From a virus, in IMG/VR virus record IMGVR_UViG_3300046001_008203, positions 1 through 31,070 of that record: DNA of 31,070 bases. One strand, 5' to 3'. Shown in pieces: positions 10,080 through 29,517 of the stretch. A program made the position numbers and the translations under genes. The notes under the pieces were generated by a model. The model did no database searches. It saw nothing but the letters and a program-made list of their open reading frames with translations, and was not told the origin of the DNA. How positions within the stretch are numbered: position 1 is the first letter of the stretch; every line of letters begins with the position of its first letter.

Positions 10080-10132
10080 CGTTGTTTTAATACAACAAAC
10101 CTATTGACTTAATACTGTAACTGTCGTATAAT
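10080..10132 (+). promoter_or_regulatory. Palindrome-linked promoter 1
   Basis: Palindrome at 10080-10097 (CGTTGT-TTTAAT-ACAACA, one mismatch to TGTTGT). Then a 6-bp gap, -35 TTGACT at 10104-10109, 17-bp spacer and -10 TATAAT at 10127-10132. Drives the gene at 10159. Confidence 0.8.
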
Positions 10133-10158
10133 AGATTCTTAGTTGAAAGGAATCTATT

Positions 10159-10506
10159 ATGATGATATATGGTTATATTCCAAAATCCAAATCGAAGAAA
10201 TTGTCTAAAGCTCAGCAAGAGCAAAAAGACGAATGGCTGAAATCACTCAATAAAATCTCAGGAAAACGGATAATTGCCATTCCTAAGAGTATTAATAGAG
10301 TATTTCCATCTCCTAAGATTCCGCCTGGCCGAGAAACACCAAAATATGCGTCCTTGGACACAGGATTTATTCCTTGCACAAAATCAGTAGAAGGAAACTC
10401 TTATACAGGCGCAAAAATGAAGGGAGTTGCAACAATGCACAAGTCCAACGCAGTTCCTGTTTTTACCGACAACGAAGCAAGAGAAATTTCGAGCATGAGG
10501 AGATAA
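10159..10506 (+). CDS. Conserved phage protein with C-terminal MHKSNAVPVF motif
   Basis: The 115-residue protein is basic at its N terminus (YGYIPKSKSKKLSKAQQEQ). It has a middle block PPGRETPKYASLDTGF and a C-terminal block MKGVATMHKSNAVPVFTDNEA. I recognise this as a family common in T4-like phages of unknown function; it has no transmembrane segment. GAAAGGAAT precedes two adjacent ATGs; the first is taken, but the second (10162) is equally possible. Confidence 0.75.
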   Translation: MMIYGYIPKSKSKKLSKAQQEQKDEWLKSLNKISGKRIIAIPKSINRVFPSPKIPPGRETPKYASLDTGFIPCTKSVEGNSYTGAKMKGVATMHKSNAVPVFTDNEAREISSMRR

Positions 10507-10508
10507 AA

Positions 10509-10697
10509 ATGCTAATGGAACATGAAAAAACGCAAATTTATCGAGGAATTGACTCGGTAATTTTCAATTTGAAGCACTTACCCATTGATGATGTCGCATA
10601 TTTTTTAGTAAAATTCAATCCGAAGCTGGCGGATGAGTTGGCAACATCAATTTCACAGCAAATTTTTGATAAAACCGAAGGAAAAAAGCATGAATGA
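10509..10697 (+). CDS. Small hypothetical protein (62 aa)
   Basis: ATG 10509 follows AGGAGATAAAA, so it is preferred over the longer reading that begins inside the upstream gene. The product is 62 residues, helical, with a DDVAYFLVKFNPKLADEL core. It overlaps the next gene by 8 bases. Function unknown. Confidence 0.65.
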   Translation: MLMEHEKTQIYRGIDSVIFNLKHLPIDDVAYFLVKFNPKLADELATSISQQIFDKTEGKKHE

Positions 10698-10863
10698 GCA
10701 AAATAATCAATCTGGTCAGTATATTTGGCTTAACGCCATCACAGATGATGGTGAAATACCTGATTGGAAGCGCCTAGATATAGTCACCAAGAAGTGGGCT
10801 AACTTAACACAAATGGAAAATGATTTATCCGACTACCAAAAGCGCAAAGAAATGTATCAATGA
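10690..10863 (+). CDS. Small hypothetical protein (57 aa)
   Basis: ATG 10690 follows AAGGAAAAAAGC; the longer upstream reading is not needed. The product is 57 residues, polar, with a Trp-containing core (WLNAITDDGEIPDWKRLD) and a charged helical end. It is the last gene before palindrome-linked promoter 2. Function unknown. Confidence 0.6.
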   Translation: MNEQNNQSGQYIWLNAITDDGEIPDWKRLDIVTKKWANLTQMENDLSDYQKRKEMYQ

Positions 10864-10866
10864 TAC

Positions 10867-10918
10867 TGTTGTCAATAAACAACACATAGGTTGACACCTG
10901 CCGTGGTTGTGTTATACT
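10867..10918 (+). promoter_or_regulatory. Palindrome-linked promoter 2 (cobS-like gene)
   Basis: Exact palindrome TGTTGT-CAATAA-ACAACA at 10867-10884, 6-bp gap, TTGACA at 10891-10896, 16-bp spacer, TATACT at 10913-10918. Transcription would start near 10925, about 22 bp before the CobS-like ATG. Confidence 0.85.
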
Positions 10919-10946
10919 ATTATTTTACTTGATTAGGAATTATATT

Positions 10947-12083
10947 ATGAATAAAAATGCTCTGTCTTTCGTTGAAGCTTGTGAGAGAATGTTTGGCAAT
11001 AATGCCGTTGTAACTAGAGACGGTATTGCTGAAGTGGTAAGTGAATCTGGCGCACCTTATCCTTATTGGTTAGTAACCAAATCCGAATTTCGCCATGGTC
11101 GAGGATATTACAAAGTGCCATCATCTGGTAAAACAATTACAAAAACAGAATCAGTTAAACAGGAAGAACCTGAAATGGAAGTAGCATATCAAAATGTTGT
11201 GCAATTACGCCAACCAAAATTAATTGATGATAATGAGCCTTCTGTTCCTGCTAAGTATCCTGATTATGTTCCTTTTGGCTTTTTCAAAGATTTACGGAAT
11301 ATTCTAAAAACAAAAATGTTCTATCCTATCTTCATTACTGGTTTATCAGGTAATGGTAAAACATTGATGGTCGAGCAAGTTTGTGCTGAATTAGACCGTG
11401 AATGTGTCCGTGTTAATATCAGTATTGAAACTGATGAGTCCGACTTACTTGGTGGTTTTGCTTTGATTAATGGTAATACAGTTTACCATGATGGCCCCGT
11501 AATTACCGCTATGAAGCGTGGCACAGTATTGTTGATTGACGAAGTTGACCGTGGTTCAAATAAACTATTATGCTTACAAGGCATCTTAGAAGGTAAACCA
11601 TACTACAATAAGAAAACTGGTGAAATGGTTTATCCAGCTAAAGGTTTCAATGTTGTATGTACAGCAAACACAAAAGGTCGTGGTAGTGATGAGGGTAGAT
11701 ATCTATCACAGATTTTAGATGATGCATTCCTAGAGCGGTTTCCTATTACTGTTGAACAGAATTATCCTGATGCTAAAACAGAGAAGAAAATCCTTTCTCC
11801 GTTAATTGATGACCAAGTATTCGTTGAGAATCTGGTACAATGGGCTGATGTAGTTCGGCAATCATTTGGCCAAGGCGCAACAGATGAGATTATCTCCACT
11901 CGCCGTTTGGTACACATTGCACAGGCTTTTAAAATCTTTGGTGATAAGATGAAAGCCATTACATTATGTGTTAACCGTTTTGATGAAGAAACTAAAACGG
12001 CATTCTTAGACTTGTATTCTAAAGTCGATGTTACCGTGGAATCTCCAGCTAACACCAGTTTTAATCAAGTAAATGTCGAGTAA
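10947..12083 (+). CDS. cobS: AAA+ ATPase, CobS/MoxR-like
   Basis: Chaperone-type ATPase of the MoxR/CobS class, expected to form a ring that remodels a partner with a VWA domain. The 378-residue protein has a 100-residue phage-specific N-terminal region, then Walker A GLSGNGKT (132-139), Walker B VLLIDEVD (194-201), sensor asparagine N241 (CTANT) and a likely arginine finger R264 (DAFLERF). The start at 10947 follows AGGAAT and lies downstream of the promoter; an upstream in-frame ATG at 10929 sits about at the transcription start. The partner gene with HExxH and VWA motifs lies two genes on. A role in cobalamin synthesis is not implied. Confidence 0.88.
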   Translation: MNKNALSFVEACERMFGNNAVVTRDGIAEVVSESGAPYPYWLVTKSEFRHGRGYYKVPSSGKTITKTESVKQEEPEMEVAYQNVVQLRQPKLIDDNEPSVPAKYPDYVPFGFFKDLRNILKTKMFYPIFITGLSGNGKTLMVEQVCAELDRECVRVNISIETDESDLLGGFALINGNTVYHDGPVITAMKRGTVLLIDEVDRGSNKLLCLQGILEGKPYYNKKTGEMVYPAKGFNVVCTANTKGRGSDEGRYLSQILDDAFLERFPITVEQNYPDAKTEKKILSPLIDDQVFVENLVQWADVVRQSFGQGATDEIISTRRLVHIAQAFKIFGDKMKAITLCVNRFDEETKTAFLDLYSKVDVTVESPANTSFNQVNVE

Positions 12084-12267
12084 AAAAAATAACTCGGCAA
12101 TTGAAAAGTTAAAAAGAGTTGCCATTAGTGAAAATGATCCAGAGGACATTGATGGCATACTTGATACCTTTGCGGAACTACTAATATATAAATGTGTAAA
12201 TATTGTAGAGAAAAAAGGTTACCAAACTGAAGAAATACTATGCCGTTATTTTGGTATAGATTATTGA
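12073..12267 (+). CDS. Small hypothetical protein between CobS-like and CobT-like genes
   Basis: The 64-residue protein starts inside the end of the AAA+ gene (11-base overlap). It has a basic N terminus and a helical body (DPEDIDGILDTFAELLIYKCVNIVEKK). Its stop codon TGA forms part of the next palindrome. Translational coupling to the ATPase suggests a partner or adaptor role (inference). Confidence 0.65.
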   Translation: MSSKKNNSAIEKLKRVAISENDPEDIDGILDTFAELLIYKCVNIVEKKGYQTEEILCRYFGIDY

Positions 12268-12316
12268 TGTATGAAAACAACACCATGGTTGACACCGACC
12301 GTGGTTCCTGTATAAT
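12265..12316 (+). promoter_or_regulatory. Palindrome-linked promoter 3 (cobT-like gene)
   Basis: Palindrome TGATGT-ATGAAA-ACAACA at 12265-12282 (one mismatch), overlapping the stop codon of the upstream gene. Then a 6-bp gap, TTGACA at 12289-12294, 16-bp spacer, TATAAT at 12311-12316 followed by GGT. The spacer shares a CCGTGGTT segment with promoter 2. Confidence 0.85.
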
Positions 12317-12339
12317 GGTTCTATTAACTCGGAGAATAC

Positions 12340-14481
12340 ATGGAACTTATAGAATCTAAATCGTTACTTGCCAAATTGATGGCCACAGAAAATCTTACCG
12401 TAGAACAACGGCAAGTACCAACTGCTATGTTTGATGTTAAGAATCGTATTTTAACATTACCAATATTAGATAATAATATCTCTGGTTATCTTTATGACCT
12501 TTTATGTGGTCACGAAGTTGGCCACGCATTGTATACTCCAGAAGATGGTATAAGAAAAGCCTTAGAATTAAAATTGTCCATGTCATTGATGAATGTATTG
12601 GAAGATTCCCGTATTGAGCGTAAAATCAAAAACAAATATCCTGGCATTCGTGCCTCATTTGTCCGTGGTTATTCCGAATTAATCGCAAAAGATTTCTTTG
12701 GTACAGCTGGTGTTGATATGAATACACTAAACTTTATTGACCGTGTTAACCTCTTCTGTAAAGGCGGACCCACTCAAGGTATTAAATTCAATGAAGAAGA
12801 AACCTCTTTATTAAAAGAAATTGAATCAACACAAACCTATGATGATGTAATTGAGCTTGCAATAAGAATTGGTGAGTTTATGAAAAACCAATCCGAAGAA
12901 GCTGAGAAGAAAAGAATAGAATCTGGTGACCAAGAGGAAGATGAAGAATTTGATAACGATGGTTATGAAGATTCCGAAGAAGAAACTGAAGAAATGGAAT
13001 TTAAACCTAATTCACCAGAAGGAAGTTATGATGAAGATACATTTCAGCAATCGGATGAAGTTAAAGAAAATGAACAAAGTGGAACTCAGGGTGCCGGCGT
13101 AGAAGGTCACCATGATATTAAATCTCATACCGATGAAGCATATGAAAGAAACCAAAATAAACTTTATGCTCATACAGGTAGAGAATATTACTACGGCAAC
13201 ATTCCATCCATTAACTTAGATAAGATGATTATTCCATATAAGCAATTATGGAAAAGATATAAAGCTGAAGCTTCGGAATATGCAACTGATACTGCTGGTT
13301 TCCAAAAAACTAGGAAAGATTCAACTAAAGTTGTTTCATATCTAGCCAAAGAATTTGAACTGCGTAAAAATGCTGACCAAATGAAACGTACCTCGATTGC
13401 CAAAACTGGTGAATTGAATATGTCCAAGATTTATTCTTATGTGTTCAATGAGGATATCTTCAAGAAAGCCACAGTAGTTGCTGAAGGCAAATCACATGGT
13501 TTGGTTATGTTCTTGGATTGGTCAGGTTCGATGTCCGAAAATATTAACAATACAGTCAAACAGTTAATTAATCTAACACTCTTTTGTAAGAAGGTTAATA
13601 TTCCTTTTGATGTATATGCCTTTTCGTCCGAATACAACGACAATGATTGGTTGAAAGAAACTTGGAAAGAAGGTAATATTTACCTAGACAAATGTAATTT
13701 GTTAAACATTCTTTCCAGTAAAATGGCTGCATCTGAATATTCATATGCTTGTAGTGCATTATTGTATATGACTAGTGGTCATCATAGATTGGATTGGTTC
13801 TGCCTTGGTGGCACTCCACTCAATGAAGCAATTATTGCTGCTATGGAAATTATTCCAGAATTCAAAAAACAATATAAGTTACAACTTGTTAATACTGTAT
13901 TCCTAACTGATGGCGAAGGCCATGGTGGTAACATGGTGTATCGTAATCTACCAGTAGAAAGTATTCCATTCAACGATGCGGTAACACATACTGCTGAAGA
14001 GCAACTTGTACCTATGAGAGGTCTGACCAGACAGAGATATGGTTCTTGCAATGAGATATATGTTATCCGTGATCCTAAAACAAAGAATCAGGTTATATTA
14101 AATGAAGGTTCTGGTCAAGAAAAAATTACTGGTGCATTTCTCAAGTTATTAAAACAGAGAACAGGATGTAATGTGGTGGGCTTCTATATATTATCATCCA
14201 GAGATTTTAGAAACGCAATCTGGAGATACTTTCCAAAGTTATCAAATACTGAGTTATTGAGGTCAGAGTTCCGTAAAAATAACTTTGCTGTTTCTATCAA
14301 TGCTGGATATGATGAATACTATTTCATCCGCACAGAAGGTATGAATACAGATGATGATGTAGAACTTGAAGTAAAAGAAAATGCGACCACCCGTGGACTT
14401 GTATCAGCATTTAGCAAGTATACAAAAGGTCGTTTGACTAACCGTGTAGTATTAAACCGTTTTATAGGAATGATAGCATGA
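12340..14481 (+). CDS. cobT: CobT-like VWA protein with metalloprotease HExxH motif
   Basis: This 713-residue protein has an N-terminal region with HEVGH at 58-62, a zinc-metallopeptidase signature. A very acidic linker follows at about 185-255, and a VWA domain whose MIDAS motif DWSGS begins at D393. In CobS/CobT and MoxR/VWA systems the VWA protein binds the target and the AAA+ ring does work on it; the matching CobS-like ATPase is just upstream under the same kind of promoter. Whether the peptidase site is active cannot be seen. It overlaps the next gene by ATGA. Both genes recur in marine T4-like phages, where their job is still unclear. Confidence 0.85.
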   Translation: MELIESKSLLAKLMATENLTVEQRQVPTAMFDVKNRILTLPILDNNISGYLYDLLCGHEVGHALYTPEDGIRKALELKLSMSLMNVLEDSRIERKIKNKYPGIRASFVRGYSELIAKDFFGTAGVDMNTLNFIDRVNLFCKGGPTQGIKFNEEETSLLKEIESTQTYDDVIELAIRIGEFMKNQSEEAEKKRIESGDQEEDEEFDNDGYEDSEEETEEMEFKPNSPEGSYDEDTFQQSDEVKENEQSGTQGAGVEGHHDIKSHTDEAYERNQNKLYAHTGREYYYGNIPSINLDKMIIPYKQLWKRYKAEASEYATDTAGFQKTRKDSTKVVSYLAKEFELRKNADQMKRTSIAKTGELNMSKIYSYVFNEDIFKKATVVAEGKSHGLVMFLDWSGSMSENINNTVKQLINLTLFCKKVNIPFDVYAFSSEYNDNDWLKETWKEGNIYLDKCNLLNILSSKMAASEYSYACSALLYMTSGHHRLDWFCLGGTPLNEAIIAAMEIIPEFKKQYKLQLVNTVFLTDGEGHGGNMVYRNLPVESIPFNDAVTHTAEEQLVPMRGLTRQRYGSCNEIYVIRDPKTKNQVILNEGSGQEKITGAFLKLLKQRTGCNVVGFYILSSRDFRNAIWRYFPKLSNTELLRSEFRKNNFAVSINAGYDEYYFIRTEGMNTDDDVELEVKENATTRGLVSAFSKYTKGRLTNRVVLNRFIGMIA

Positions 14482-14687
14482 AAGATATAGCAACTTTTGT
14501 GGGTGGCGCAGGACAACTAATAGCAGTAATATTTGAAGCTGAAGATAAATCATTTTACAAAGTGAATTATGGAACACCAAAAAATCCACATTCATTCAGT
14601 AAAGTGTTTATGTCGGAAAGTGAAGCAGAACAATTTGCAAATGAATTTACTAATAAAGGAAACAAACCAGTTTTACTGGAAGAATAA
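14478..14687 (+). CDS. Small hypothetical protein (69 aa)
   Basis: Starts by ATGA overlap with the CobT-like gene. The 69-residue product looks like a small alpha/beta domain (VIFEAEDKSFYKVNYG, then SESEAEQFANEFTNKG). No family recognised. AGAATAATT lies between its end and the MazG-like start 2 bases later. Confidence 0.65.
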   Translation: MKDIATFVGGAGQLIAVIFEAEDKSFYKVNYGTPKNPHSFSKVFMSESEAEQFANEFTNKGNKPVLLEE

Positions 14688-14689
14688 TT

Positions 14690-14971
14690 ATGGATGATAA
14701 AGTGAAAGAAATATTGTTGATTACTCAAGAGGAGTGCGCAGAAGTAACTCAAGCAATCTCCAAAGTATTTCGTTTTGGTTTTGATGATTGCTGGCCAAGA
14801 GGTGAAGATTGGGTACCGACAAACAAAGAACAGCTTGAAGAAGAAGTCGGTGATTTGCTTTGTATGATTGACGTTATGGTAGAGAATGGAATTATATCCG
14901 ATGAGAAACTCAATAAAGCAAGAATCAGAAAACGTGAGAAATTAAAAACTTGGTCGAGTATATTTAAATAA
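14690..14971 (+). CDS. MazG-like nucleotide pyrophosphohydrolase
   Basis: Hydrolyses nucleoside triphosphates, or (p)ppGpp-like alarmones in some phages, to monophosphates. The 93-residue all-helical protein has the metal-binding pattern ExxE at about 15-18 (EECAEVTQ) and ExxD at about 52-55 (EEEVGDLLCMID), typical of single-domain MazG/all-alpha NTP pyrophosphatases. It fits with the phage nucleotide-metabolism genes. Its stop overlaps the next ATG (TAATG). Confidence 0.82.
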   Translation: MDDKVKEILLITQEECAEVTQAISKVFRFGFDDCWPRGEDWVPTNKEQLEEEVGDLLCMIDVMVENGIISDEKLNKARIRKREKLKTWSSIFK

Positions 14972-15090
14972 TGGATTTACATCAACTCATAGCATTTCTA
15001 AACAAAGTATATGTATGGACTCCACAGGACAGTCCTATTCGCCAAGAAATCCAAAATGTTCTGAATCACTTGAAAGCACAAAGACAATGA
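14971..15090 (+). CDS. Very small protein (39 aa)
   Basis: ATG 14971 overlaps the MazG-like stop, and its own stop overlaps the start of the epimerase gene, so it is linked on both sides. The product is 39 residues, helical, with VYVWTPQDSPIRQEIQNVL in the middle. The tight coupling and protein-like composition support it as real. Function unknown. Confidence 0.6.
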   Translation: MDLHQLIAFLNKVYVWTPQDSPIRQEIQNVLNHLKAQRQ

Positions 15091-16042: not shown

Positions 16043-16078
16043 TGCTTTTCCTTTTTGTATTAGTGTTACTACTATTAG

Positions 16079-16086: not shown

Positions 16087-16121
16087 CTTAGTTATCATCA
16101 TCTAAGAGACATTCTCATCCT

Positions 16122-18050: not shown

Positions 18051-18141
18051 TGTTGTTTTTACACAACAAGCGTCATATCGTGTCGCTCACAAATTCTAAA
18101 CTCAAAATAATGCTTTACATTTTCTCAAATTAGTGTATAAT
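18051..18141 (+). promoter_or_regulatory. Palindrome-linked promoter 4 (distant palindrome)
   Basis: Exact palindrome TGTTGT-TTTTAC-ACAACA at 18051-18068. The promoter is 45 bp further on: -35 TTTACA at 18114-18119, 16-bp spacer, -10 TATAAT at 18136-18141. This is the widest palindrome-promoter gap in the set. It serves the very AT-rich genes that follow. Confidence 0.65.
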
Positions 18142-18514: not shown

Positions 18515-18712
18515 ATGAAAGATAATATAATGATTAATAATAATACAGAATTAACTACAATAACATTTAATAATAATGAATTAGATGTTATATACGACGC
18601 ATTAACTGAATTCGAAAATATGACCGATAATGACGGAGAGCAGAATATTATACATGATATATTCACTAAAATATATGTTGCCAATAAACAACATAGTGGA
18701 AATAGTATTTGA
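18515..18712 (+). CDS. Low-GC small acidic protein (65 aa)
   Basis: Shares the extreme AT content of the preceding gene. The start may be 18515 or the ATG at 18530, which has GAAAGAT before it. The product is acidic and helical (NNELDVIYDALTEFENMTDND). Its last codons contain a TGTTGC-N6-ACAACA palindrome and the -35 box of the next promoter. Function unknown. Confidence 0.6.
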   Translation: MKDNIMINNNTELTTITFNNNELDVIYDALTEFENMTDNDGEQNIIHDIFTKIYVANKQHSGNSI

Positions 18713-18736
18713 CATCCAGTCCAATTAGTGTATAAT
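18676..18736 (+). promoter_or_regulatory. Palindrome-linked promoter 5
   Basis: Palindrome TGTTGC-CAATAA-ACAACA at 18676-18693 (one mismatch; same centre as promoter 2), inside the end of a gene. A 15-bp gap follows, then TTGACA at 18709-18714, 16-bp spacer, TATAAT at 18731-18736 followed by GGT. Confidence 0.85.
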
Positions 18737-19132: not shown

Positions 19133-19197
19133 GGTGTTGTTTAATTACAACACCATTTTAAATAATTCTTGCCATTTTTGCGAGAGTCCTTTAAAAT
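19133..19197 (+). promoter_or_regulatory. Palindrome-linked promoter 6
   Basis: Exact palindrome TGTTGT-TTAATT-ACAACA at 19135-19152, extended by GG/CC to an 8-bp arm (19133-19154). A 16-bp gap follows, then TTGCCA at 19169-19174, 17-bp spacer, TAAAAT at 19192-19197 followed by GGT. The -10 and -35 boxes are the weakest of the series. Confidence 0.75.
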
Positions 19198-19226: not shown

Positions 19227-19352
19227 ATGTATAGTAAATTAATTAAAAAGCTGATTGCGATGGGTTACACCGATATGAATGAAATTAATCAAGCAGTAGT
19301 AAAGTATTTGCGGACTGGCAAATTAGTTAAACCTACTAAAGGAAAAGTATGA
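19227..19352 (+). CDS. Very small protein (41 aa) before Gp88-like gene
   Basis: AAAAGGAAATAAA precedes ATG 19227. The 41 residues are basic and helical (MYSKLIKKLIAMGYTDMNEI, ending KPTKGKV). It overlaps the Gp88-like gene by ATGA, so the two are translated together. Function unknown. Confidence 0.65.
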   Translation: MYSKLIKKLIAMGYTDMNEINQAVVKYLRTGKLVKPTKGKV

Positions 19353-20101
19353 AATTATTGTCCACAGGTAATCCAAAGGTACTGAAAGGTATCAAGCAAG
19401 GCTATAACACCTATATCCTCCATTTGGCACCCGCAGCTCTGTCTGGTCATGAGGTATGTCCTAAGCGGACTGTAGGTTGTACTGATAGCTGCTTGAATAC
19501 AGCTGGTCGTGGTGGTATGTTTAAACGTGGTGAGGTAACGAATGTAATCCAGCAGGCTCGTATTCGTAAAACCAAACTATTCTTTGCTGACCGTGATGGC
19601 TTCATGGAGTTATTAGTAAAGGATATTCTATTAGGCATTAAGCAGTCTGAGCGTCTTGGTCTAATACCTGTATTCCGTTTAAATGGTACTAGTGACCTCT
19701 CATGGGAAAAGTATCCAGTTAAAATGGGTAATGTATTCTATACCAATATTTTTGAGGCATTCCCTAATGTCCAATTCTATGATTACACCAAGGTGCTTGG
19801 TCGTAAGGTACAAGGTATCAGTAATTACCACCTTACCTTTAGTGCCGCAGATGGTAATGATGGTGATGTAACCAAGGCAATTTCACAAGGTTACAATATT
19901 GCCACAGTATTTGGTATTAAGAAAACCGTACCGATGCCTGAATTGTACTTAGGCACCCCAGTCTACAATGGCGATGAGAGCGACCTACGCTTTCTGGATC
20001 CAAAAGGTGTTATAGTAGGGCTGTATGCAAAAGGTAAGGCTAAGAAGGATACAAGTGGCTTTGTGAAATATCCTACTATCAGCTTGAAGATTGCCGCATA
20101 A
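19349..20101 (+). CDS. Gp88-like phage protein with CX6CX3C motif
   Basis: The 250-residue protein matches the pattern I know from the phage/plasmid Gp88 family: GNPKVLKGIKQGY, HLAPAALSG, the cysteine block CPKRTVGCTDSCLNTAGRG (C37, C44, C48) and FRLNGTSDLSWE. The family has no firmly known function. The three clustered cysteines could bind a metal or an Fe-S cluster, but the spacing is not the radical-SAM CX3CX2C. It is expressed from palindrome-linked promoter 6. Confidence 0.75.
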   Translation: MKLLSTGNPKVLKGIKQGYNTYILHLAPAALSGHEVCPKRTVGCTDSCLNTAGRGGMFKRGEVTNVIQQARIRKTKLFFADRDGFMELLVKDILLGIKQSERLGLIPVFRLNGTSDLSWEKYPVKMGNVFYTNIFEAFPNVQFYDYTKVLGRKVQGISNYHLTFSAADGNDGDVTKAISQGYNIATVFGIKKTVPMPELYLGTPVYNGDESDLRFLDPKGVIVGLYAKGKAKKDTSGFVKYPTISLKIAA

Positions 20102-20106: not shown

Positions 20107-20168
20107 TGTTGTTTTTTTACAACAAAGTGGCAAATAATTCTTGACATTTTTACCAATACCTGTATAAT
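20107..20168 (+). promoter_or_regulatory. Palindrome-linked promoter 7
   Basis: Exact palindrome TGTTGT-TTTTTT-ACAACA at 20107-20124, 16-bp gap, TTGACA at 20141-20146, 16-bp spacer, TATAAT at 20163-20168 followed by GGT. Drives the gene at 20199. Confidence 0.88.
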
Positions 20169-20507: not shown

Positions 20508-20571
20508 GGTGTTGTTTTTATACAACACCATTATACAGGACGCTTGCCATTTTGTAGGACTCCTGTATAAT
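20508..20571 (+). promoter_or_regulatory. Palindrome-linked promoter 8
   Basis: Exact palindrome TGTTGT-TTTTAT-ACAACA at 20510-20527, arms extended by GG/CC (20508-20529). A 16-bp gap follows, then TTGCCA at 20544-20549, 16-bp spacer, TATAAT at 20566-20571 followed by GGT. Transcription should begin near 20578, giving an unusually long leader before the gene at 20817. Confidence 0.85.
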
Positions 20572-21137: not shown

Positions 21138-21394
21138 ATAAGAATAAAGGGTGGTACACAGATTTATTGTTGCAGTATTACCAGACTTACGGACGCACAG
21201 TTGGCCAAAGAGCAGTATTCGCTCGGGTACCAATGTCCAAGTATGATGAGTTTAAAGCTTTGTTTGGCAATAAGTTTAGGTTGAGGTATCGTGGTCCTAG
21301 AGCTCACCGTATCGCTCGAGGTAGGTCTCATTCACTTGCTCAGTCCACTTGCTTGAAGGTAGATGCCACCCACTTCTCCGCTTATATGCAGTAG
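21134..21394 (+). CDS. Basic hypothetical protein (86 aa)
   Basis: The start at 21134 (ATGA overlap) is preferred to the upstream ATG at 21122. The 86-residue product is strongly basic, with an RLRYRGPRAHRIARGRSHS stretch that could bind nucleic acid. The stop lies within palindrome 9. No family recognised. Confidence 0.65.
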   Translation: MNKNKGWYTDLLLQYYQTYGRTVGQRAVFARVPMSKYDEFKALFGNKFRLRYRGPRAHRIARGRSHSLAQSTCLKVDATHFSAYMQ

Positions 21395-21445
21395 TTGTAT
21401 GGAAACAACACTACACTTGCCATCCTACCATATCTGTAGTATAAT
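21393..21445 (+). promoter_or_regulatory. Palindrome-linked promoter 9
   Basis: Palindrome AGTTGT-ATGGAA-ACAACA at 21393-21410 (one mismatch), overlapping the end of the upstream gene. Then a 6-bp gap, TTGCCA at 21417-21422, 17-bp spacer, TATAAT at 21440-21445 followed by GGT. Confidence 0.82.
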
Positions 21446-21494: not shown

Positions 21495-21839
21495 ATGGCT
21501 TTTTTAACAGTAAGAAAAGGTAAGGTAAACCGTCATGAGAAAATTACCCAGGTATTACTAAGTGGTAAGCCTGTGAGTCCCGATGAAATTGCTACAGTAT
21601 TTAAAGGGACTGACCAAGAAGGTGTGCTGTATCGCTTAAGCACTAACATATACAATATCCGTAAGGATGGAGGTATCGTGAAAGTGATTAAGAGTGGTAG
21701 AGCAGTATCAGCATATCAGCTAGTGAATTTTGCCGAGTTTAACAATGATGGGCGTTATGTGGGTAAGCCAAAAGCTGTCGCACAGAAACCTACTGAAGTT
21801 GCTCAGGTAAAAGTTGAGGTAAGTTCTGAGGTAAACTAA
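21495..21839 (+). CDS. Possible winged-helix DNA-binding protein (114 aa)
   Basis: AGGAGTATTATAGT precedes the ATG. Residues about 12-75 read like a small winged-helix domain: RHEKITQVLLSGKPVSPDEI (helix), EGVLYRLSTNIYNIRKDGG (recognition-helix-like) and VKVIKSGRAVSAYQLV (wing). The tail 85-114 is Val/Lys/Gln-rich and probably disordered. It sits in the middle of the palindrome-linked promoters and is itself behind one, so it is a candidate regulator of them. The fold call is by eye only. Confidence 0.55.
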   Translation: MAFLTVRKGKVNRHEKITQVLLSGKPVSPDEIATVFKGTDQEGVLYRLSTNIYNIRKDGGIVKVIKSGRAVSAYQLVNFAEFNNDGRYVGKPKAVAQKPTEVAQVKVEVSSEVN

Positions 21840-23612: not shown

Positions 23613-23614
23613 AG

Positions 23615-23675
23615 TGTTGTTTTTATACAACAGTATTAAAATAGTTCTTGACAAAACCTTAAAAGCCTGTATAAT
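23615..23675 (+). promoter_or_regulatory. Palindrome-linked promoter 10
   Basis: Exact palindrome TGTTGT-TTTTAT-ACAACA at 23615-23632 (identical 18 bases to promoters 8 and 13), 15-bp gap, TTGACA at 23648-23653, 16-bp spacer, TATAAT at 23670-23675 followed by GGT. Confidence 0.88.
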
Positions 23676-23701
23676 GGTACATATATTGATGAGGAGAGTT
23701 T

Positions 23702-24265: not shown

Positions 24266-24273
24266 GTACCATT

Positions 24274-24516
24274 ATGACCTCATTAATTACTTCCGTTACA
24301 CCCGTATTAACCTCATATGCCAATTTTTGGTCATTACCTTATATGCCTATCAATAGGAACATATATGACTACTCAATAGGCGCAATTCCAGCGTATAATT
24401 CTACTGGTGTGAGATACAATCACTCTCAAGATACCATCACCCCTATGGCGCCCTCCGTCATTCTAAACCTATCTCCTACGGCTCTGGATCTGTTGTATAA
24501 AAACAACAATCTGTAA
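24274..24516 (+). CDS. Hypothetical protein (80 aa), start uncertain
   Basis: No ribosome binding site is visible before ATG 24274, but the frame is open for 80 codons and fills the gap. The sequence is Ser/Thr/Pro/Tyr-rich without charge clusters (YMPINRNIYDYSIGAIPAYN). The last codons contain palindrome 11. It could be real or a chance frame. Confidence 0.45.
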   Translation: MTSLITSVTPVLTSYANFWSLPYMPINRNIYDYSIGAIPAYNSTGVRYNHSQDTITPMAPSVILNLSPTALDLLYKNNNL

Positions 24517-24552
24517 AATAATACTTGACGGACTCCGTGGAACCTGTATAAT
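24491..24552 (+). promoter_or_regulatory. Palindrome-linked promoter 11
   Basis: Exact palindrome TGTTGT-ATAAAA-ACAACA at 24491-24508; read on the other strand this is the same 18-mer as at promoters 8, 10 and 13, so here it is inverted. A 16-bp gap follows, then TTGACG at 24525-24530, 16-bp spacer, TATAAT at 24547-24552 followed by GGT. Confidence 0.86.
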
Positions 24553-24578
24553 GGTTCTATTGTTGATTAGGAGAGAAT

Positions 24579-25454
24579 ATGATTAGTTTAGTGAATGGAA
24601 TGTATACCGCAGTTATTAACGGAAAGACCGTAAAGCGGACAAAACGCAGTCACCTTGAGTATGTGCTTCGTAAAGCTGCCAAAAGTGAACCTGTTGCGTC
24701 CACGCCTGTTACACAATCAAAATTTACAATCAATCAAAGATTCGGTTTTCTATCGGATATGATTGTAATGCTCGCCAATGGTGACCAGCCGTCCGTTGTA
24801 GTCACAGGACCTGGTGGTCTTGGCAAATCCCACACAGTTACAACAGCACTCAAAAAAGCTGGACTTAAAGATATGTCCATTCTTGATGATTATGAGATTG
24901 GTGCCAATGTGCCAAAGAATGCCTTTGTTGTAATCAAAGGATATTCCACACCTAAAGGTTTGTATCGGACTCTGTATGAGAACCGTAATAGCATTATTGT
25001 GTTTGATGATTGCGACTCTGTATTGAAAGATACCGTATCATTGAACCTACTCAAAGGTGCCTTAGATTCTTATTCTAAGCGGATTATCTCATGGCGTGCC
25101 GATATCAAAGATGAAGATTTGCCTACATCATTCGAATTCAAAGGCCGTGTAGTATTCATATCTAATATGTCCTCTACACAATTAGACCAAGCTATTATAT
25201 CTCGGTCAATGTCGGTTGATGTAACTATGACCACAGAGCAGAAAGTTGAAAGAATGAGGCATTTGGTTACTGAGCAATCGTTCATGCCAGAGTTTGATTT
25301 GGTTTCTAAGAATGATGCATTGAACCTGATTGCCAGTTTGGCTGATACAGTAAAAGAATTATCATTGCGAACATTGATCCAAGTTACCAAGATTCGTAAA
25401 GCGAATCCAAATAACAATTGGAAAGATTTAGCAGAGTATGCAATTTGTGGATAA
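24579..25454 (+). CDS. AAA+ ATPase (291 aa)
   Basis: The protein has a 50-residue basic N-terminal region, then Walker A GPGGLGKS (77-84), Walker B IIVFDD (139-144), a sensor-1 asparagine N196 (FISNMS) and a likely arginine finger R209 (IISRS). It resembles small phage AAA+ ATPases that load or remodel DNA-bound complexes; I cannot place it further. TTAGGAGAGAAT precedes the ATG. The SWIM-finger gene follows 10 bases later in the same unit, suggesting a joint role at DNA. Confidence 0.82.
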   Translation: MISLVNGMYTAVINGKTVKRTKRSHLEYVLRKAAKSEPVASTPVTQSKFTINQRFGFLSDMIVMLANGDQPSVVVTGPGGLGKSHTVTTALKKAGLKDMSILDDYEIGANVPKNAFVVIKGYSTPKGLYRTLYENRNSIIVFDDCDSVLKDTVSLNLLKGALDSYSKRIISWRADIKDEDLPTSFEFKGRVVFISNMSSTQLDQAIISRSMSVDVTMTTEQKVERMRHLVTEQSFMPEFDLVSKNDALNLIASLADTVKELSLRTLIQVTKIRKANPNNNWKDLAEYAICG

Positions 25455-25464
25455 TGGAGAAAAT

Positions 25465-25863
25465 ATGAAAATAGAAGCATATCGTGAAATTACAGATTGG
25501 TCAGATACCGAGTATTATGTACCTAATCATACTTACCTATTTGATGGTAAGTCCAATATATTGGCATATGCCATTGAAGGCACGGAGGATATTACAGTAT
25601 TCAATAAGCCATTAAAGATGGACACCAGACGCCGTAAGTTTGAAAAGGTTAAACATACAGGCCTAGAGATATTGGCAGGTACTTTACAATTAGATTCTAA
25701 GCCTACACAATCGGACTATCCAAACTGGAAAGTAAAATCGGACTCTGGTAAAGAATATATTGTGGAATTAATAAGTGGCAAATACCATTGTAACTGTGTT
25801 GGTTATGGATATCGTGGTAAATGTAAACATTCGGACAGTATTAAAGATAGTTTACCAAAATAA
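25465..25863 (+). CDS. SWIM zinc-finger protein (132 aa)
   Basis: The C-terminal part has a complete SWIM pattern CxCx8CxH (C109, C111, C120, H122 in YHCNCVGYGYRGKCKH). SWIM domains bind DNA or proteins and often occur with ATPases or recombination factors. The N-terminal 100 residues are beta-rich and unassigned. The start at 25465 follows GGAGAAAAT; an upstream in-frame ATG lies inside the AAA+ gene. Confidence 0.8.
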   Translation: MKIEAYREITDWSDTEYYVPNHTYLFDGKSNILAYAIEGTEDITVFNKPLKMDTRRRKFEKVKHTGLEILAGTLQLDSKPTQSDYPNWKVKSDSGKEYIVELISGKYHCNCVGYGYRGKCKHSDSIKDSLPK

Positions 25864-25866
25864 GGC

Positions 25867-25895
25867 TTGTTTTTATTACAGTAATAGTGTATAGT
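25867..25895 (+). promoter_or_regulatory. Weak promoter of the ParB-like gene
   Basis: TATAGT at 25890-25895 followed by GGT matches the local -10 pattern; the best -35 is TTGTTT at 25867-25872 with a 17-bp spacer, a poor match. No palindrome is present. Transcription would start near 25902, exactly at the leader hairpin. Confidence 0.5.
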
Positions 25896-25901
25896 GGTTT
25901 A

Positions 25902-25963
25902 TGTGGTGTGTAAAATCACCACATTTTTATAAACCTAGTTTACAAGGACTCACATTTTGTGGT
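25902..25963 (+). promoter_or_regulatory. Leader with alternative hairpins before the ParB-like gene
   Basis: TGTGGTG (25902-25908) pairs with CACCACA (25917-25923), a 7-bp hairpin followed by five T residues, terminator-like. ACCACA (25918-25923) could instead pair with TGTGGT (25958-25963). The two folds exclude each other, so this may be an attenuator, or a 5' hairpin that stabilises the mRNA. Confidence 0.45.
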
Positions 25964-25989
25964 CGTAAATTTTTTAAAAAGGAAACACA

Positions 25990-27048
25990 ATGGCTTTCGA
26001 TTTAAACTCTCTTGACCCTCAAATGGTCACATTCCAGCACTTATTCTCACCAGGCACAAAATTTGTTGACCGTGGTATTATCAAACTTGACCGTATATAT
26101 TCTCCTGAAGTTAATCAAAATGTCGCAAGAAAAAAAGGTAAGAATTTACCTCATATTCAAATCTTATCAAAATCATTATCAAATGGAATTGATTACTCGA
26201 AGATGCCTCCGGTTATTAAAAAGAAAACACAAATCATTAATGGCAAGACCTATGATTATGAATTAATCTGTGGTTATCACCGATTCGAAGCTCTAAAGGT
26301 ACTTTGTCAATATGACCGTTGGATTTTTGACATATATGATGTTTGCTTAGACGGTTATTCGTTTGAAGATTCTGTTACAACATTTAAGTTGCAAGAAAAT
26401 AATCACACGCCTGCATTAGCAAATGCTGCAGATGATGTTGTAAATGCAATTTTATATTTAATTGAAAAAGGTTCTGTATTAGTTCAAGCAGATGAAGCAA
26501 GTATTGATAATTATGTTAGTCTTTATTGTTCAAATTTACATTGGCAAACACAAGGGAAAATTATTCGCCGTGTAATTGCAGCGAGTGGTGCATATCAAGA
26601 TGTTGTAACATACACCGCAAACGACCTTGATGCATGGTTAAGTTCAAATACTGATTACAAGATGTCTGGTATATTAGACAAGAAACGAAATAAAGCCGGT
26701 TATACTTGTTTATCTCGTTATGAACCAGATACTTTGTTTAGTGCTATGAAAGCGTATTCAGACTACGGTAAAGAATCTTATATCATTGGTCATACATCAG
26801 CACCAACAAAAGAAAGTTCCGTTGATGATAAACGACAGAAGATGGCGGATAACTTTGAAAGATGGGAAACTTTCTTAAAAGATGTTATTAAATTTTACAA
26901 CAACAATGGAAGATTTCCATGGGTTCTTGAAGGATTTGTTCCACAAGATAGACAGAAGCCAGAAGATTTTACAAAGATAATTCCCATATCACAATTTAAG
27001 AAAACAAATAAAACCAAAACACTAACTTTGGAAGATTTAATTTCTTAA
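25990..27048 (+). CDS. ParB-like N-terminal domain protein (352 aa)
   Basis: The N-terminal third has a ParB/Srx-like pattern with ELICGYHRFEALKVL (G95, H97, R98), the GxHRxxA-type nucleotide-binding motif. PHIQILSKSLSNGIDYSK upstream corresponds to the segment before it. In related proteins this domain binds CTP or acts as a nuclease. The rest is helical, with no recognised DNA-binding domain, and the C terminus is basic. AAAAAGGAAACACA precedes the ATG. It follows the AAA+/SWIM pair but has its own leader. Confidence 0.72.
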   Translation: MAFDLNSLDPQMVTFQHLFSPGTKFVDRGIIKLDRIYSPEVNQNVARKKGKNLPHIQILSKSLSNGIDYSKMPPVIKKKTQIINGKTYDYELICGYHRFEALKVLCQYDRWIFDIYDVCLDGYSFEDSVTTFKLQENNHTPALANAADDVVNAILYLIEKGSVLVQADEASIDNYVSLYCSNLHWQTQGKIIRRVIAASGAYQDVVTYTANDLDAWLSSNTDYKMSGILDKKRNKAGYTCLSRYEPDTLFSAMKAYSDYGKESYIIGHTSAPTKESSVDDKRQKMADNFERWETFLKDVIKFYNNNGRFPWVLEGFVPQDRQKPEDFTKIIPISQFKKTNKTKTLTLEDLIS

Positions 27049-27055
27049 TTCAATC

Positions 27056-27127
27056 TGTTGTACCAAAACAACAATGTGGTATAAGTTGTTGTTTTGGTAT
27101 TGACACCTACCATGGAACCTGTATAAT
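27056..27127 (+). promoter_or_regulatory. Palindrome-linked promoter 12 with long hairpin
   Basis: Exact palindrome TGTTGT-ACCAAA-ACAACA at 27056-27073, 26-bp gap, TTGACA at 27100-27105, 16-bp spacer, TATAAT at 27122-27127 followed by GGT. In addition 27061-27074 is the exact reverse complement of 27086-27099, a 14-bp inverted repeat that brings a second TGTTGT up against the -35 box. Confidence 0.85.
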
Positions 27128-27134
27128 GGTTTAC

Positions 27135-27272
27135 ATGATGAAAAAACAAATCAAACCCACAAGAGCACATTACATTTTGTTTTGTGAGAATACTCCGTTT
27201 AAACCAAAGCGAGTAGTCTCCAAACTAAAGCGTAAGCCCAAACACAAACTAAAGGAATTATATGGCAACTAG
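27135..27272 (+). CDS. Small basic protein (45 aa), possibly leaderless
   Basis: Two adjacent ATGs (27135, 27138) begin 7 bases after the -10 box, about at the expected transcription start, leaving no room for a ribosome binding site. The 45 residues are very basic (KPTRAHYILFCENTPFKPK, then KLKRKPKHKLKELYG), with a pattern I have seen in short proteins of marine T4-like phages. It overlaps the next gene by 11 bases and contains its AAAGGAAT. Confidence 0.6.
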   Translation: MMKKQIKPTRAHYILFCENTPFKPKRVVSKLKRKPKHKLKELYGN

Positions 27273-27717
27273 AAGCGCAATCGCAATCAAGCATGGCCGT
27301 AATACAATCAAATCTGTATACTGCCATTGGGATGGATATCCTGAACATAATGGTCGTATTCTCCAAGAATATTGGTTTACTCCAATTTTAATCAATCAGC
27401 TGATTGAAATGGGTGATATAAGTTCACTTGGTGCCACTATCGGTAAAAAGGTTGAGTTTGATGCCACACCAGAATATATTCAAAATGATTTTGAAATGGC
27501 TATATCATATCAATGTAAATTCTATAATCGTGACCGTGGTGAGAATACATCATTCAGGACATTTGAAACAGAAGCAGAGTTTATTGAGCATTATGATGAG
27601 GCTGGCATAGAATACTTTTATCTATTTGATAATGGTGTATGGTATGTCCGAGATTATCGTGATGTTGAATGGAAAGAAGTATCATCATTATTAACTAAAC
27701 AAAAGGAAACAGCATAA
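27262..27717 (+). CDS. Conserved phage protein with YCHWDGYP motif (151 aa)
   Basis: The 151-residue protein opens MATRSAIAIKHG and carries SVYCHWDGYPEHNG at about 18-31 and a LIEMGDISSLG block. These mark a family frequent in phage accessory regions and of unknown function. It is soluble and aromatic-rich. AAAGGAATTAT precedes the ATG. Confidence 0.78.
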   Translation: MATRSAIAIKHGRNTIKSVYCHWDGYPEHNGRILQEYWFTPILINQLIEMGDISSLGATIGKKVEFDATPEYIQNDFEMAISYQCKFYNRDRGENTSFRTFETEAEFIEHYDEAGIEYFYLFDNGVWYVRDYRDVEWKEVSSLLTKQKETA

Positions 27718-27893
27718 TGCAGAACCATGATATTAGTAGCAGAGAGTATATTGCCGTGTTACAAACTGAAGTTGAAACACTACGCCGATATTATTACAAG
27801 GGACCAGATTTACCCGGCACAGGTCATTTCAATACAGCCATTGGTGTGTTGGAGTTCCGTATCAAAGAATTATCTAAAGAAATGATTATATGA
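27717..27893 (+). CDS. Small helical protein (58 aa)
   Basis: Coupled by TAATG to the upstream gene, with AAAGGAAACAGCATA before it. The 58 residues are helical (REYIAVLQTEVETLRRYYY, ending GVLEFRIKELSKEMII), probably a dimerising coiled coil. It overlaps the next gene by ATGA. Function unknown. Confidence 0.65.
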   Translation: MQNHDISSREYIAVLQTEVETLRRYYYKGPDLPGTGHFNTAIGVLEFRIKELSKEMII

Positions 27894-28108
27894 GTTGGTT
27901 TCTAATATTTTGGTTAGGTTCACCGACCAATTATCAGATACACTCCTCATATGAAGATAAGATGGATTGCCAGAAACAACAGGCATATTACTTGGGTGTA
28001 TTTGATAGAGTGAATACAAAAATGATGGCAGATTGTGTATCATATCGCTTCACCAAATACAATGTTGCAACAAACAGTATTATTATTAAAAGGTATGATT
28101 TTAAATGA
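27890..28108 (+). CDS. Small hypothetical protein (72 aa)
   Basis: ATGA overlap with the preceding gene. The N terminus is hydrophobic (MSWFLIFWLGS), perhaps a short signal or membrane-association segment; the rest has two cysteines (KMDCQKQQ, MADCVSYRF). This could be exported with a disulphide, but the hydrophobic part is short. No family recognised. Confidence 0.6.
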   Translation: MSWFLIFWLGSPTNYQIHSSYEDKMDCQKQQAYYLGVFDRVNTKMMADCVSYRFTKYNVATNSIIIKRYDFK

Positions 28109-28419
28109 GTGATAGATTCGATTTTGAACAACAGATTATGCAATGTTGGAGAGTTACTGAAGATATCAAAGATATATCCGAAGGTATTATTGAAGATAAT
28201 TTGACACTAGAAGAAGCAACTAGCATTCTAGTTGGCCTACGCCAAATGTATGAATTAAAATTCAATAAGCTTTGGGATTGCTTTGAAGATGTCCACATGA
28301 AATTGGTGCGTGATAACGCTATGATTACTGGTGAATGTAACGCATTAAGGCAGCAATTACTAGAAGCAACAGATGTACCATTTATTAAAGCATCAAAAGG
28401 AAAGAAAGTCGAGAAATGA
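28105..28419 (+). CDS. Conserved-type phage protein (104 aa)
   Basis: ATGA overlap upstream and downstream. The 104-residue helical protein opens FDFEQQIMQCWRVTEDIKDI, a pattern I associate with a small family in T4-like phages of unknown function. It continues with a second helical region (LRQMYELKFNKLWDCFEDV) and a Lys-rich end. Confidence 0.7.
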   Translation: MSDRFDFEQQIMQCWRVTEDIKDISEGIIEDNLTLEEATSILVGLRQMYELKFNKLWDCFEDVHMKLVRDNAMITGECNALRQQLLEATDVPFIKASKGKKVEK

Positions 28420-28643
28420 CCAAATATATTGCCAAACCAGCTCTGTTTAACAACAAAGGCATGAAAGAATTTACAGATGCTAAAGAAGCCATTGAGTATT
28501 TGAATGGTGTTTTAAAAGATGAAGGTGTGAATCCTGAATTAGAGTATGTATTCATTGCACCCAAAACATCTAGGACACAATTAAAACACGCCATTGAAGA
28601 ATACATTGGCATTGGTAAACTAATCGTAGAGGAGACAATATAG
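28416..28643 (+). CDS. Small hypothetical protein (75 aa)
   Basis: Starts by ATGA overlap. A compact alpha/beta domain by appearance (FTDAKEAIEYLNGVLKDEG, then YVFIAPKTSRTQLKHAIEEY). Its last codons contain GAGGAG, the ribosome binding site of the next gene, and the two genes share one base. Function unknown. Confidence 0.65.
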   Translation: MTKYIAKPALFNNKGMKEFTDAKEAIEYLNGVLKDEGVNPELEYVFIAPKTSRTQLKHAIEEYIGIGKLIVEETI

Positions 28644-28837
28644 TGGATGAACCGAAGTCGGATTACAATCAATGGCGCAGAGTAGATATTAGGTCATTGG
28701 TAGAATTGCGTGATGTATTAAGAAACCTTCAAGTGGCAAACTATTTGAATGGGCTTGACAGGTTGGAACATTTTGTGTTACAATCTGAATGTAGTGAGGC
28801 AAAAGAAGTATTAACTTATATTATGAAAAGGAAATAA
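28643..28837 (+). CDS. Small hypothetical protein with GTG start (64 aa)
   Basis: GTG 28643 overlaps the upstream TAG and has GAGGAG about 9 bases before it; the nearby ATG at 28647 is in a different frame. The 64 residues are helical and charged (DIRSLVELRDVLRNLQVANY). Next comes the lipoprotein gene after 1 base. No family recognised. Confidence 0.65.
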   Translation: MDEPKSDYNQWRRVDIRSLVELRDVLRNLQVANYLNGLDRLEHFVLQSECSEAKEVLTYIMKRK

Positions 28838-28838
28838 A

Positions 28839-29177
28839 ATGAAATCAAAATTGTTATTATCGTTGTTAGTTGTAATCGGTGCAGTTGGTTGTGCTAGTAA
28901 TCAACCAGCACCACCCACAGTTCAAATAGAGTGGAAACAACCACCAGTTGCAAACATTCAACCTGACTCAAGTACCAAAACTGTATTCAAGTTGAAGAAT
29001 TATGAGGGTCCAGAAGCCATGGATCAAAACGAAGTGATTGCGGCTGCTCGTGAGTGCATCAAAGTTCAGTTACAACCAAAAATCACCTACCTATCTGTAA
29101 GAACAGACCATGGTAAGTTGCAAGTGCCTGTATCTGTAATGTGTGAGAATTTTCGTAACCAAAACATACTAAACTAA
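28839..29177 (+). CDS. Phage-encoded lipoprotein (112 aa)
   Basis: The N terminus is a lipoprotein signal: MKSK, a hydrophobic stretch LLLSLLVVIGAVG, then C18 as the lipidated cysteine followed by ASN, which favours outer-membrane sorting. The mature part is Pro/Gln-rich at first, then a small domain with two cysteines (ARECIKV, VMCENF). In an early-type region it might alter the host envelope, for example in superinfection exclusion (inference only). AAAAGGAAATAAA precedes the ATG. Confidence 0.75.
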   Translation: MKSKLLLSLLVVIGAVGCASNQPAPPTVQIEWKQPPVANIQPDSSTKTVFKLKNYEGPEAMDQNEVIAAARECIKVQLQPKITYLSVRTDHGKLQVPVSVMCENFRNQNILN

Positions 29178-29178
29178 T

Positions 29179-29412
29179 ATGGATGATAACCAATTACTAC
29201 ATTTAGTTGAAGAAGTGGATACCAAACTGGTACATTGGGGCACAGTCCATAAATTAGCCCCTTTATCATTATCTGGTGTCCTACTTGGTAGGATTCTATT
29301 GATGGTGCAAAACACAGGCTGTGAAGATGATTTCTGGAGATTGGTTGACAGTATCCAAAATGATCCGAGTTGTAGGTTTGCGTCAAAGATAGATGATAAA
29401 CTGATACACTAG
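29179..29412 (+). CDS. Small hypothetical protein (77 aa)
   Basis: Begins 1 base after the lipoprotein stop. The 77 residues are helical and soluble (LLHLVEEVDTKLVHWGTVHK, then SGVLLGRILLMVQ). Last gene of the unit; a hairpin follows its stop. No family recognised. Confidence 0.65.
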   Translation: MDDNQLLHLVEEVDTKLVHWGTVHKLAPLSLSGVLLGRILLMVQNTGCEDDFWRLVDSIQNDPSCRFASKIDDKLIH

Positions 29413-29415
29413 AGG

Positions 29416-29446
29416 CCATGGGAATTGCACCTACGCAATCCTATGG
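29416..29446 (+). terminator. Strong hairpin, possible terminator
   Basis: CCATGGGAATTGC (29416-29428) pairs with GCAATCCTATGG (29435-29446), 12 pairs with one bulge, around the 6-base loop ACCTAC. It lies 3 bases after a stop codon. The downstream sequence is only moderately T-rich, so termination may be partial. It stands separately from palindrome 13 just downstream. Confidence 0.55.
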
Positions 29447-29456
29447 TGTCTTATTG

Positions 29457-29517
29457 TGTTGTTTTTATACAACATTTTACATATATAACTTGACACCACC
29501 CTTGGTTGTGTTATAAT
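29457..29517 (+). promoter_or_regulatory. Palindrome-linked promoter 13
   Basis: Exact palindrome TGTTGT-TTTTAT-ACAACA at 29457-29474, 15-bp gap, TTGACA at 29490-29495, 16-bp spacer, TATAAT at 29512-29517 followed by GGT. Drives the metallophosphoesterase gene. Confidence 0.88.

Follow-up and report, generated by a model that had tools for sequence, protein, structure and literature searches.

The stretch of DNA analysed here, hereafter called the window, is the whole 31,070-base IMG/VR record IMGVR_UViG_3300046001_008203. Judged by their sequences, its genes are of a T4-like, Kyanoviridae-like kind. They include genes for DNA primase, both ribonucleotide reductase subunits and an exonuclease, as well as for a CobS-like ATPase in open reading frame (ORF) 10929-12083, whose closest relatives among the matches listed come from Pelagibacter phage HTVC008M and Synechococcus phages. 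A CobT-like peptidase is encoded at 12340-14481, an AAA ATPase of the family phrog_1250 at 24579-25454 and a phrog_1617 protein at 19349-20101, and ORF 20817 corresponds to DUF7717. Our subject is an 18-bp palindrome, TGTTGT-N6-ACAACA, that recurs in the window just ahead of promoters of the sigma70 type. We propose that it is an operator which acts on these promoters from upstream and from one face of the helix, and we hold this to be probable whatever the sign of its effect and whoever encodes the protein that would read it.

Thirteen copies of the palindrome, nine exact and four with one mismatch, had been listed in an earlier note on this stretch, and a search allowing up to one mismatch returned the same thirteen, with exactly the same end positions. 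Dinucleotide-preserving shuffles of the window contain 0.22 +/- 0.46 such copies on average and 2 at most. The 0.002 exact copies that the earlier note expected by chance are of the right order, composition alone giving 0.0034. Chance or composition as the origin of the palindromes is ruled out by these shuffles together with a scan using a scrambled palindrome, described below. All thirteen copies lie just upstream of a near-consensus sigma70-like promoter on the plus strand, as had been claimed. The claimed gaps to the -35 box were likewise recovered: 6 bp for the palindromes ending at 10097, 10884, 12282 and 21410, 15-16 bp for those ending at 18693, 19152, 20124, 20527, 23632, 24508 and 29474, 26 bp at 27073 and 45 bp at 18068. 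The sites, their promoters and the gene of one candidate regulator, WH-A, are given below (gaps in bp; scores are matches to TTGACA/TATAAT).

10080-10097, palindrome 1, one mismatch, gap 6
10104-10132, plus strand, promoter 1, TTGACT-17-TATAAT, before ORF 10159
10867-10884, palindrome 2, exact, gap 6
10891-10918, plus strand, promoter 2, before the CobS-like ATPase ORF 10929-12083 (likely ATG 10947)
12265-12282, palindrome 3, one mismatch, gap 6
12289-12316, plus strand, promoter 3 (12/12), before the CobT-like peptidase 12340-14481
18051-18068, palindrome 4, exact, gap 45, outside the main classes
18114-18141, plus strand, promoter 4 (11/12), before ORF 18161
18676-18693, palindrome 5, TGTTGC variant, gap 15, overlapping the end of ORF 18515-18712
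18709-18736, plus strand, promoter 5 (12/12), before ORF 18785
19135-19152, palindrome 6, exact, gap 16
19169-19197, plus strand, promoter 6 (10/12), before ORF 19209 and the phrog_1617 gene 19349-20101
20107-20124, palindrome 7, exact, gap 16
20141-20168, plus strand, promoter 7 (12/12), before ORF 20199
20510-20527, palindrome 8, exact, gap 16
20544-20571, plus strand, promoter 8 (11/12), before ORF 20817 (DUF7717)
21393-21410, palindrome 9, one mismatch, gap 6
21417-21445, plus strand, promoter 9 (11/12), before the WH-A gene
21495-21836, plus strand, gene of WH-A, a 114-amino-acid winged-helix protein, candidate regulator
23615-23632, palindrome 10, exact, gap 15
23648-23675, plus strand, promoter 10 (12/12), before ORF 23702
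24491-24508, palindrome 11, exact, gap 16, inside the end of ORF 24274-24516
24525-24552, plus strand, promoter 11 (11/12), before the AAA ATPase 24579-25454 (phrog_1250)
27056-27073, palindrome 12, exact, gap 26
27100-27127, plus strand, promoter 12 (12/12), before ORFs 27126 and 27262
29457-29474, palindrome 13, exact, gap 15
29490-29517, plus strand, promoter 13 (12/12), before a metallophosphoesterase (ATG 29542, end 30432)

Six of the promoters agree with TTGACA/TATAAT at all 12 positions and all except one at 11 or more, and a blind promoter scan placed nearly all of the palindrome-linked promoters at its top ranks. Three further promoters, at 8189, 16201 and 28755, are near consensus and equally strong, yet have no palindrome. 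The copies stand close to the preceding genes: seven of the thirteen begin 2-8 nucleotides past a stop codon, another four overlap the preceding frame at its end (the earlier note had placed some within gene ends), and the remaining two lie 44 and 111 nucleotides away from it. One copy had also been called inverted. This is true of its spacer (TTTTAT versus ATAAAA) and not of its arms, which are symmetric, so that inversion has a meaning for the spacer alone.

No close DNA relative of the window is present among 50,697 phage records, and its lineage is a broad, large group of T4-like phages so far found only in metagenomes. Relatives were gathered through the AAA ATPase only, a gene unrelated to the palindrome, which gave 44 loci; the set was enlarged with longer stretches of four larger relatives (G003, G007, G009 and G013) and near-duplicates were removed. 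As a promoter we accepted a match of at least 10 of the 12 consensus bases no more than 60 bp from the palindrome. Such a promoter accompanies 85 of 118 palindromes, several of the others having a weaker one in phase, so few copies lie far from promoters, in line with the earlier note. The helical spacing that it had seen in the window is kept as well, with a best period of 10 bp (Rayleigh R 0.72). Gaps peak at 6 (25 sites) and at 15-16 (37 sites), just 2 sites have gaps of 8-13, and the distance from the palindrome to the -10 box peaks at 28/29 and 37/38 bp. When the window was left out and its gap classes were taken as the prediction, 63 of 71 independent sites with a promoter proved to be in phase, about 12 being expected by chance (p about 6e-39). 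Relative to strong promoters, 63 palindromes lie upstream and 4 downstream. A random position has such a promoter in reach in 1-3% of cases per genome analysed.

This regularity also bears on the idea that the sites serve replication, segregation or packaging and come near promoters only through scarcity of intergenic space. The genome is indeed compact, and what room there is from a stop codon to the next promoter is taken up by the sites; moreover, the protein encoded at 25990-27048 carries, when read by eye, a ParB-like motif at its N-terminus. However, the phasing to the -35 box is fixed, several sites overlap coding sequence rather than fill gaps, and none of the 44 related loci encodes a relative of the 25990 protein, which leaves this explanation scarcely credible.

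Upstream of the ATPase gene, six of the relatives (L005, L007, L008, L015, L016 and L022) have two palindromes 16 bp apart with a 2-bp overlap and with ACAACGTTGT in common, as if two dimers were placed side by side.

The pattern of conservation points to a site read as double-stranded DNA. Its consensus is TGTTG(T/C)-WTWWAW-(A/G)CAACA; among the 83 in-phase sites positions 2, 5, 16 and 17 are invariant and position 14 differs in two. Most often C replaces T at position 6 or G replaces A at position 13; in sites with at most one mismatch the pair 6/13 is C-A 15 times, T-G (U-G as RNA) 7 times and never C-G; the one compensated C-G pair belongs to a two-mismatch site. Pairing of the flanks stays at the level expected from base composition. 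At the centre of the spacer AA or TT is preferred and self-complementary steps are avoided, which suggests A-tract DNA and indirect readout by a protein rather than a stem.

The palindromes might alternatively form hairpins in RNA, where the transcripts from upstream have their 3' ends, and work as terminators or as processing or stability elements. Their placement, 2-8 nucleotides past a stop codon in seven cases and across one in four, would suit such a role, the window copies at 19133 and 20508 extend to stems of 8 pairs, and one copy in the relative G014 is followed by seven T. Against this, the cores fold with just -2.4 to -4.5 kcal/mol and one window copy does not fold. The T tract is generally absent, as the earlier note had said, the eight bases after the palindromes holding 1-5 T; a terminator scan lists one of the thirteen window copies, and Rfam gave no match. 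The deviations of the C-A kind are uncompensated and the flanks pair at chance level, which favours a site for a DNA-binding dimer over termination, the preference already expressed in the earlier note; and a 10-bp period to the downstream promoter would be meaningless for an RNA element. The palindromes thus have neither the stable G+C-rich stem and T tract of intrinsic terminators nor the compensatory base-pair changes of conserved RNA hairpins, and for this lineage pairing statistics and folding energies lead us to reject both readings. As an explanation of the palindromes we consider an RNA hairpin very improbable. The G014 copy (L248, minus strand, near 78803), with flanks AAAC and GTTT beside its seven T, is an exception that would work as a terminator.

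To see how widespread the arrangement is, we scanned IMG/VR for palindromes lying 3-33 bp ahead of TTGACA-N15-18-TATAAT. At least 120 stretches were found, as against 5 for a scrambled palindrome of equal composition. One group of matches resembles the window, with gaps of 5-7, 14-16 and 25, and a second has gaps of 9-10, 19-21 and 29 and a spacer that is mostly AAAAAT or AGAAAT. When the second group was sampled again through phrog_4973, a family of small proteins considered below, 34 palindromes were obtained versus 6 controls, 31 of the 34 at promoters and all on the strand of the phrog_4973 gene. The same scan, run over bacterial and archaeal genomes totalling 257 billion bases, yielded 16 stretches. 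Two of these (L180 and L184) resemble the phage sites; they are contigs in Bacteroidetes metagenome-assembled genomes (MAGs; ErkenSummer and LaPlata) that encode T4-like phage proteins, and so are probably mis-binned. Of the cultured phages examined, HTVC008M, DLP_6 and S-CREM1 contain no copy with up to one mismatch; Alcaligenes phage QDWS535 contains no exact one, and the imperfect copies in PA5oct (1), Paride (1) and Vibrio phage D506 (2) are at control level.

A scan in reversed order, with the palindrome downstream of the promoter, gave 107 stretches, and those that are readable are arranged differently. In some, CAGTCCT...AGGAGAAACTGTG comes after a leader element; one family has TTTGGCGCC adjoining the -10 box; and there are tandem promoters belonging to the second group. 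As a word, then, the palindrome is not unique to the lineage, whose hallmark is the phased arrangement upstream of promoters. Some of these matches have peculiarities of their own. In the phage family formed by L348-L354, L360, L362-L364 and similar loci, TGTTGTAGAAATACAACA is found 7-8 nucleotides past the -10 box and is followed by CACAGTCCT...AGGAGAAACTGTG, possibly a hairpin over the ribosome-binding site. At five loci of the second group (L054, L110, L139, L158 and L167) the -35 sequence TTGACA appears to double as the 3' arm in the stem of an intrinsic terminator, CCCTGTCAA...TTGACAGGG and then TTTTCTTTT, so that terminator and promoter would be fused. Three more (L120, L155 and L163) have inverted repeats around -35 with seemingly compensatory differences, for example TACCCAAAC...GTTTGGGTA versus TACCCAAAG...CTTTGGGTA.

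The protein that would read the palindrome is, in our opinion, somewhat more likely to be encoded by the phages than by the host, with a slim chance of something else. Of the phage proteins, WH-A is the likeliest single candidate and phrog_4973 the next. WH-A is present in nine of the nine ATPase-relative records searched and also in G011 and G013, has divergent relatives in L126, L146, L159 and L180, and finds no match at E 0.01 among GenBank phages (50,697 records). In loci picked through divergent WH-A, independently of the palindrome, the site again accompanies promoters, its gaps being 6-7 and 15-16. An AlphaFold2 (AF2) model of WH-A, built from a 14-sequence alignment (the alignment-free model was poor), has core blocks with a predicted local distance difference test (pLDDT) score of mostly 81-93, helices at 13-21, 29-34 and 42-58, and strands at 62-67 and 70-76. 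The structures that match it best belong to winged-helix regulators, for example BirA (Z 7.9, root-mean-square deviation 2.4 over 66 residues). From this model WH-A is confidently predicted to be a winged helix of three helices and a two-strand wing. Fold searches returned general winged-helix matches, none of which singles out one family; HTH_20 was the most frequent Pfam match (best E 0.008), the window protein itself falling below the curated cut-off.

The second family of small winged-helix proteins, phrog_4973, occurs in 16 of 22 motif-bearing records, including G010, G012 and G014; the six records without it are 30-108 kb long. It is also found in HTVC008M, which is without the palindrome. 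The ParB-like protein 25990-27048 was rejected as a binder, having no relatives in motif-bearing loci. The Ogr_Delta family (PF04606) was found in none of 24 motif-bearing records, an E. coli control being positive, although these records are partial and the absence is not absolute. A search for MotA/AsiA in 12 records gave no match, and its positive control gave none either.

A host transcription factor, whose site unrelated phages of the same hosts would put before their early promoters, is a doubtful alternative that differs from a phage-encoded operator system only in who encodes the protein. It would fit with the presence of the palindrome in phage groups that do not all carry WH-A, such a factor would be on hand from the first minute of infection, and phages without the site (HTVC008M, PA5oct and S-CREM1) infect other hosts. 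Yet just 16 stretches combining the palindrome with a consensus promoter were found in the bacterial and archaeal bases, the two phage-like ones being phage contigs in MAGs, in a scan that would miss host regulons with weaker core promoters.

For the operator we propose the following mechanism. A homodimeric protein of the helix-turn-helix type would bind the palindrome just upstream of the sigma70 -35 box. Its centre would fall near -49.5, -59.5 or -69.5 (the start site being assumed 7 nucleotides past the -10 box), so that a constant helical face would be turned toward RNA polymerase, which the dimer would touch via the alpha C-terminal domain or sigma region 4. The outcome would be one jointly tuned set of early promoters, thirteen in the 31-kb fragment; we call them early from promoter type and gene content. 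The DNA of the gap is 68% A+T in the 16 class versus 46% in the 6 class, and in the 16 class a run like AAAATA typically stands ahead of the -35 box, which suggests that in this A/T-rich extra turn the alpha C-terminal domain may sit between the protein and sigma. Activation by recruitment appears more likely to us than contact-dependent repression. It receives mild support from the ATPase promoter of L010 and L018, where the palindrome is still phased and the -35 box has decayed to TTGTGG.

The same operator and geometry could instead serve an early phage repressor that is itself expressed from promoters of the set and shuts the set off by holding RNA polymerase from upstream, in a position resembling that of GalR on its external operator. 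This possibility, which we think unlikely, differs from our proposal in sign only, and the confidence in the two overlaps. In its favour, a promoter that is already near consensus has more need of being switched off than on; the WH-A gene of the window, should its product be the binder, is itself read from a promoter with a palindrome; and GalR, whose external operator is at -60.5, offers a precedent (PMC4693257). Simple repressors, on the other hand, usually overlap the -35 or -10 box or sit downstream, whereas the count here is 63 upstream versus 4 downstream, and the phased palindrome beside the weak -35 box of L010 and L018 fits activation better.

In its fullest form our proposal, which we put forward tentatively, is that a phage winged-helix dimer of the WH-A or phrog_4973 family reads the palindrome at whole-turn steps, defines an early-promoter regulon in a large section of the T4-like phages that is still uncultured, and replaces the known early-to-middle control of T4, and that several divergent phage groups, one 345-kb record among them, have retained or regained the operator. 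A number of observations qualify the operator proposal as a whole or weigh against it. In the larger relatives a minority of the promoter-like matches of at least 11 of 12 have a near-exact palindrome, a fraction that is only a rough guide, because one-mismatch copies are undercounted and many promoter matches arise by chance in coding sequence. Some gaps are exceptional, that of 45 bp in the window as well as values of 20 and of 30-37 among the relatives, and the phrog_4973-selected group has no significant period, its phasing being loose. Since the core promoters come close to the consensus by themselves, it is not evident why they should need an activator. Finally, WH-A is missing from the palindrome-bearing G010, G012 and G014, and its own promoter has the palindrome in only some relatives.

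Several other genes of the window deserve mention. The nearest relatives of the small ribonucleotide reductase subunit are in a human fecal phage fragment (65%) and an Alcaligenes phage (64%), a likeness that hints at a proteobacterial host. Between the two reductase subunits (5530-6280) lie genes whose translations, on reading, resemble the iron-sulfur scaffold proteins IscU and IscA. The protein encoded at 25438-25863 (141 amino acids) has a C-terminal SWIM-like zinc motif (CNCVGYGYRGKCKH) and in relatives recurs shortly downstream of palindrome promoters. The product of 25990-27048 has 352 amino acids, with the stretch GYHRFEA resembling the ParB N-terminal motif, and matches no PHROG.

Early promoters of T4-like phages are generally viewed as sigma70 sites of the host, set apart from one another by strength alone; in the window a whole set of them is provided with a dedicated phased operator. 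We found no description of such a set in the open-access literature, whether by sequence or by topic. If a phage protein binds, the palindrome would offer a new handle on the timing of host takeover in such phages, and if a host protein does, it would help to tell the hosts of these uncultured phages. The phasing predicts that a shift of the palindrome by 10 bp is tolerated and one by 5 bp is not.

Upstream phased dimer sites are in themselves a known kind of control. In class I activation by CRP the dimer site is at -61.5 (PMC4693257). The palindromes share with it a dimer site upstream of the -35 box, on one helical face and without overlap of that box; they differ in sequence and length, in centres at about -49.5, -59.5 and -69.5, in near-consensus core promoters and in being borne by phages. 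The external operator of gal, 16 bp at -60.5, allows GalR to act on its promoter from upstream (PMC4693257). It resembles the palindromes in acting from upstream at a nearly equal distance, while GalR itself is a host metabolic regulator of a single operon with a looping partner within the gene.

Among phages, a parallel is offered by the late promoters of P2 Ogr and P4 delta, whose dyad is centred at about -55. It too is a single upstream dyad at a phage-wide set of promoters, and the P2 late promoter consensus TGT-N12-ACA (PMC3931495) can be read in nine of the nine exact sites of the window. The palindrome has more conserved bases, belongs to early-type promoters with strong -35 and -10 boxes and is centred near -50 or -60, and the 24 partial records mentioned above contain no member of the Ogr/Delta family. 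Early promoters compared in five T4-like phages have A-rich UP-like DNA at -40 to -44 (PMC1524935). They are of the host sigma70 type with A-rich DNA just upstream of the -35 box, as is the case here in the 16 class, but a palindrome goes unmentioned for them in that paper. At T4 middle promoters, controlled by MotA/AsiA, a Mot box near -30 replaces the -35 box, whereas the window promoters keep a TTGACA-like one. The operators and stoperators of L5-type mycobacteriophages, to which a repressor binds as a monomer, are 13-mers without symmetry; they follow the direction of transcription and often lie between genes rather than at promoters (PMC9283540). Many copies of one short site across a phage genome are common to L5 and the window, where the copies are symmetric 18-mers tied to promoters.

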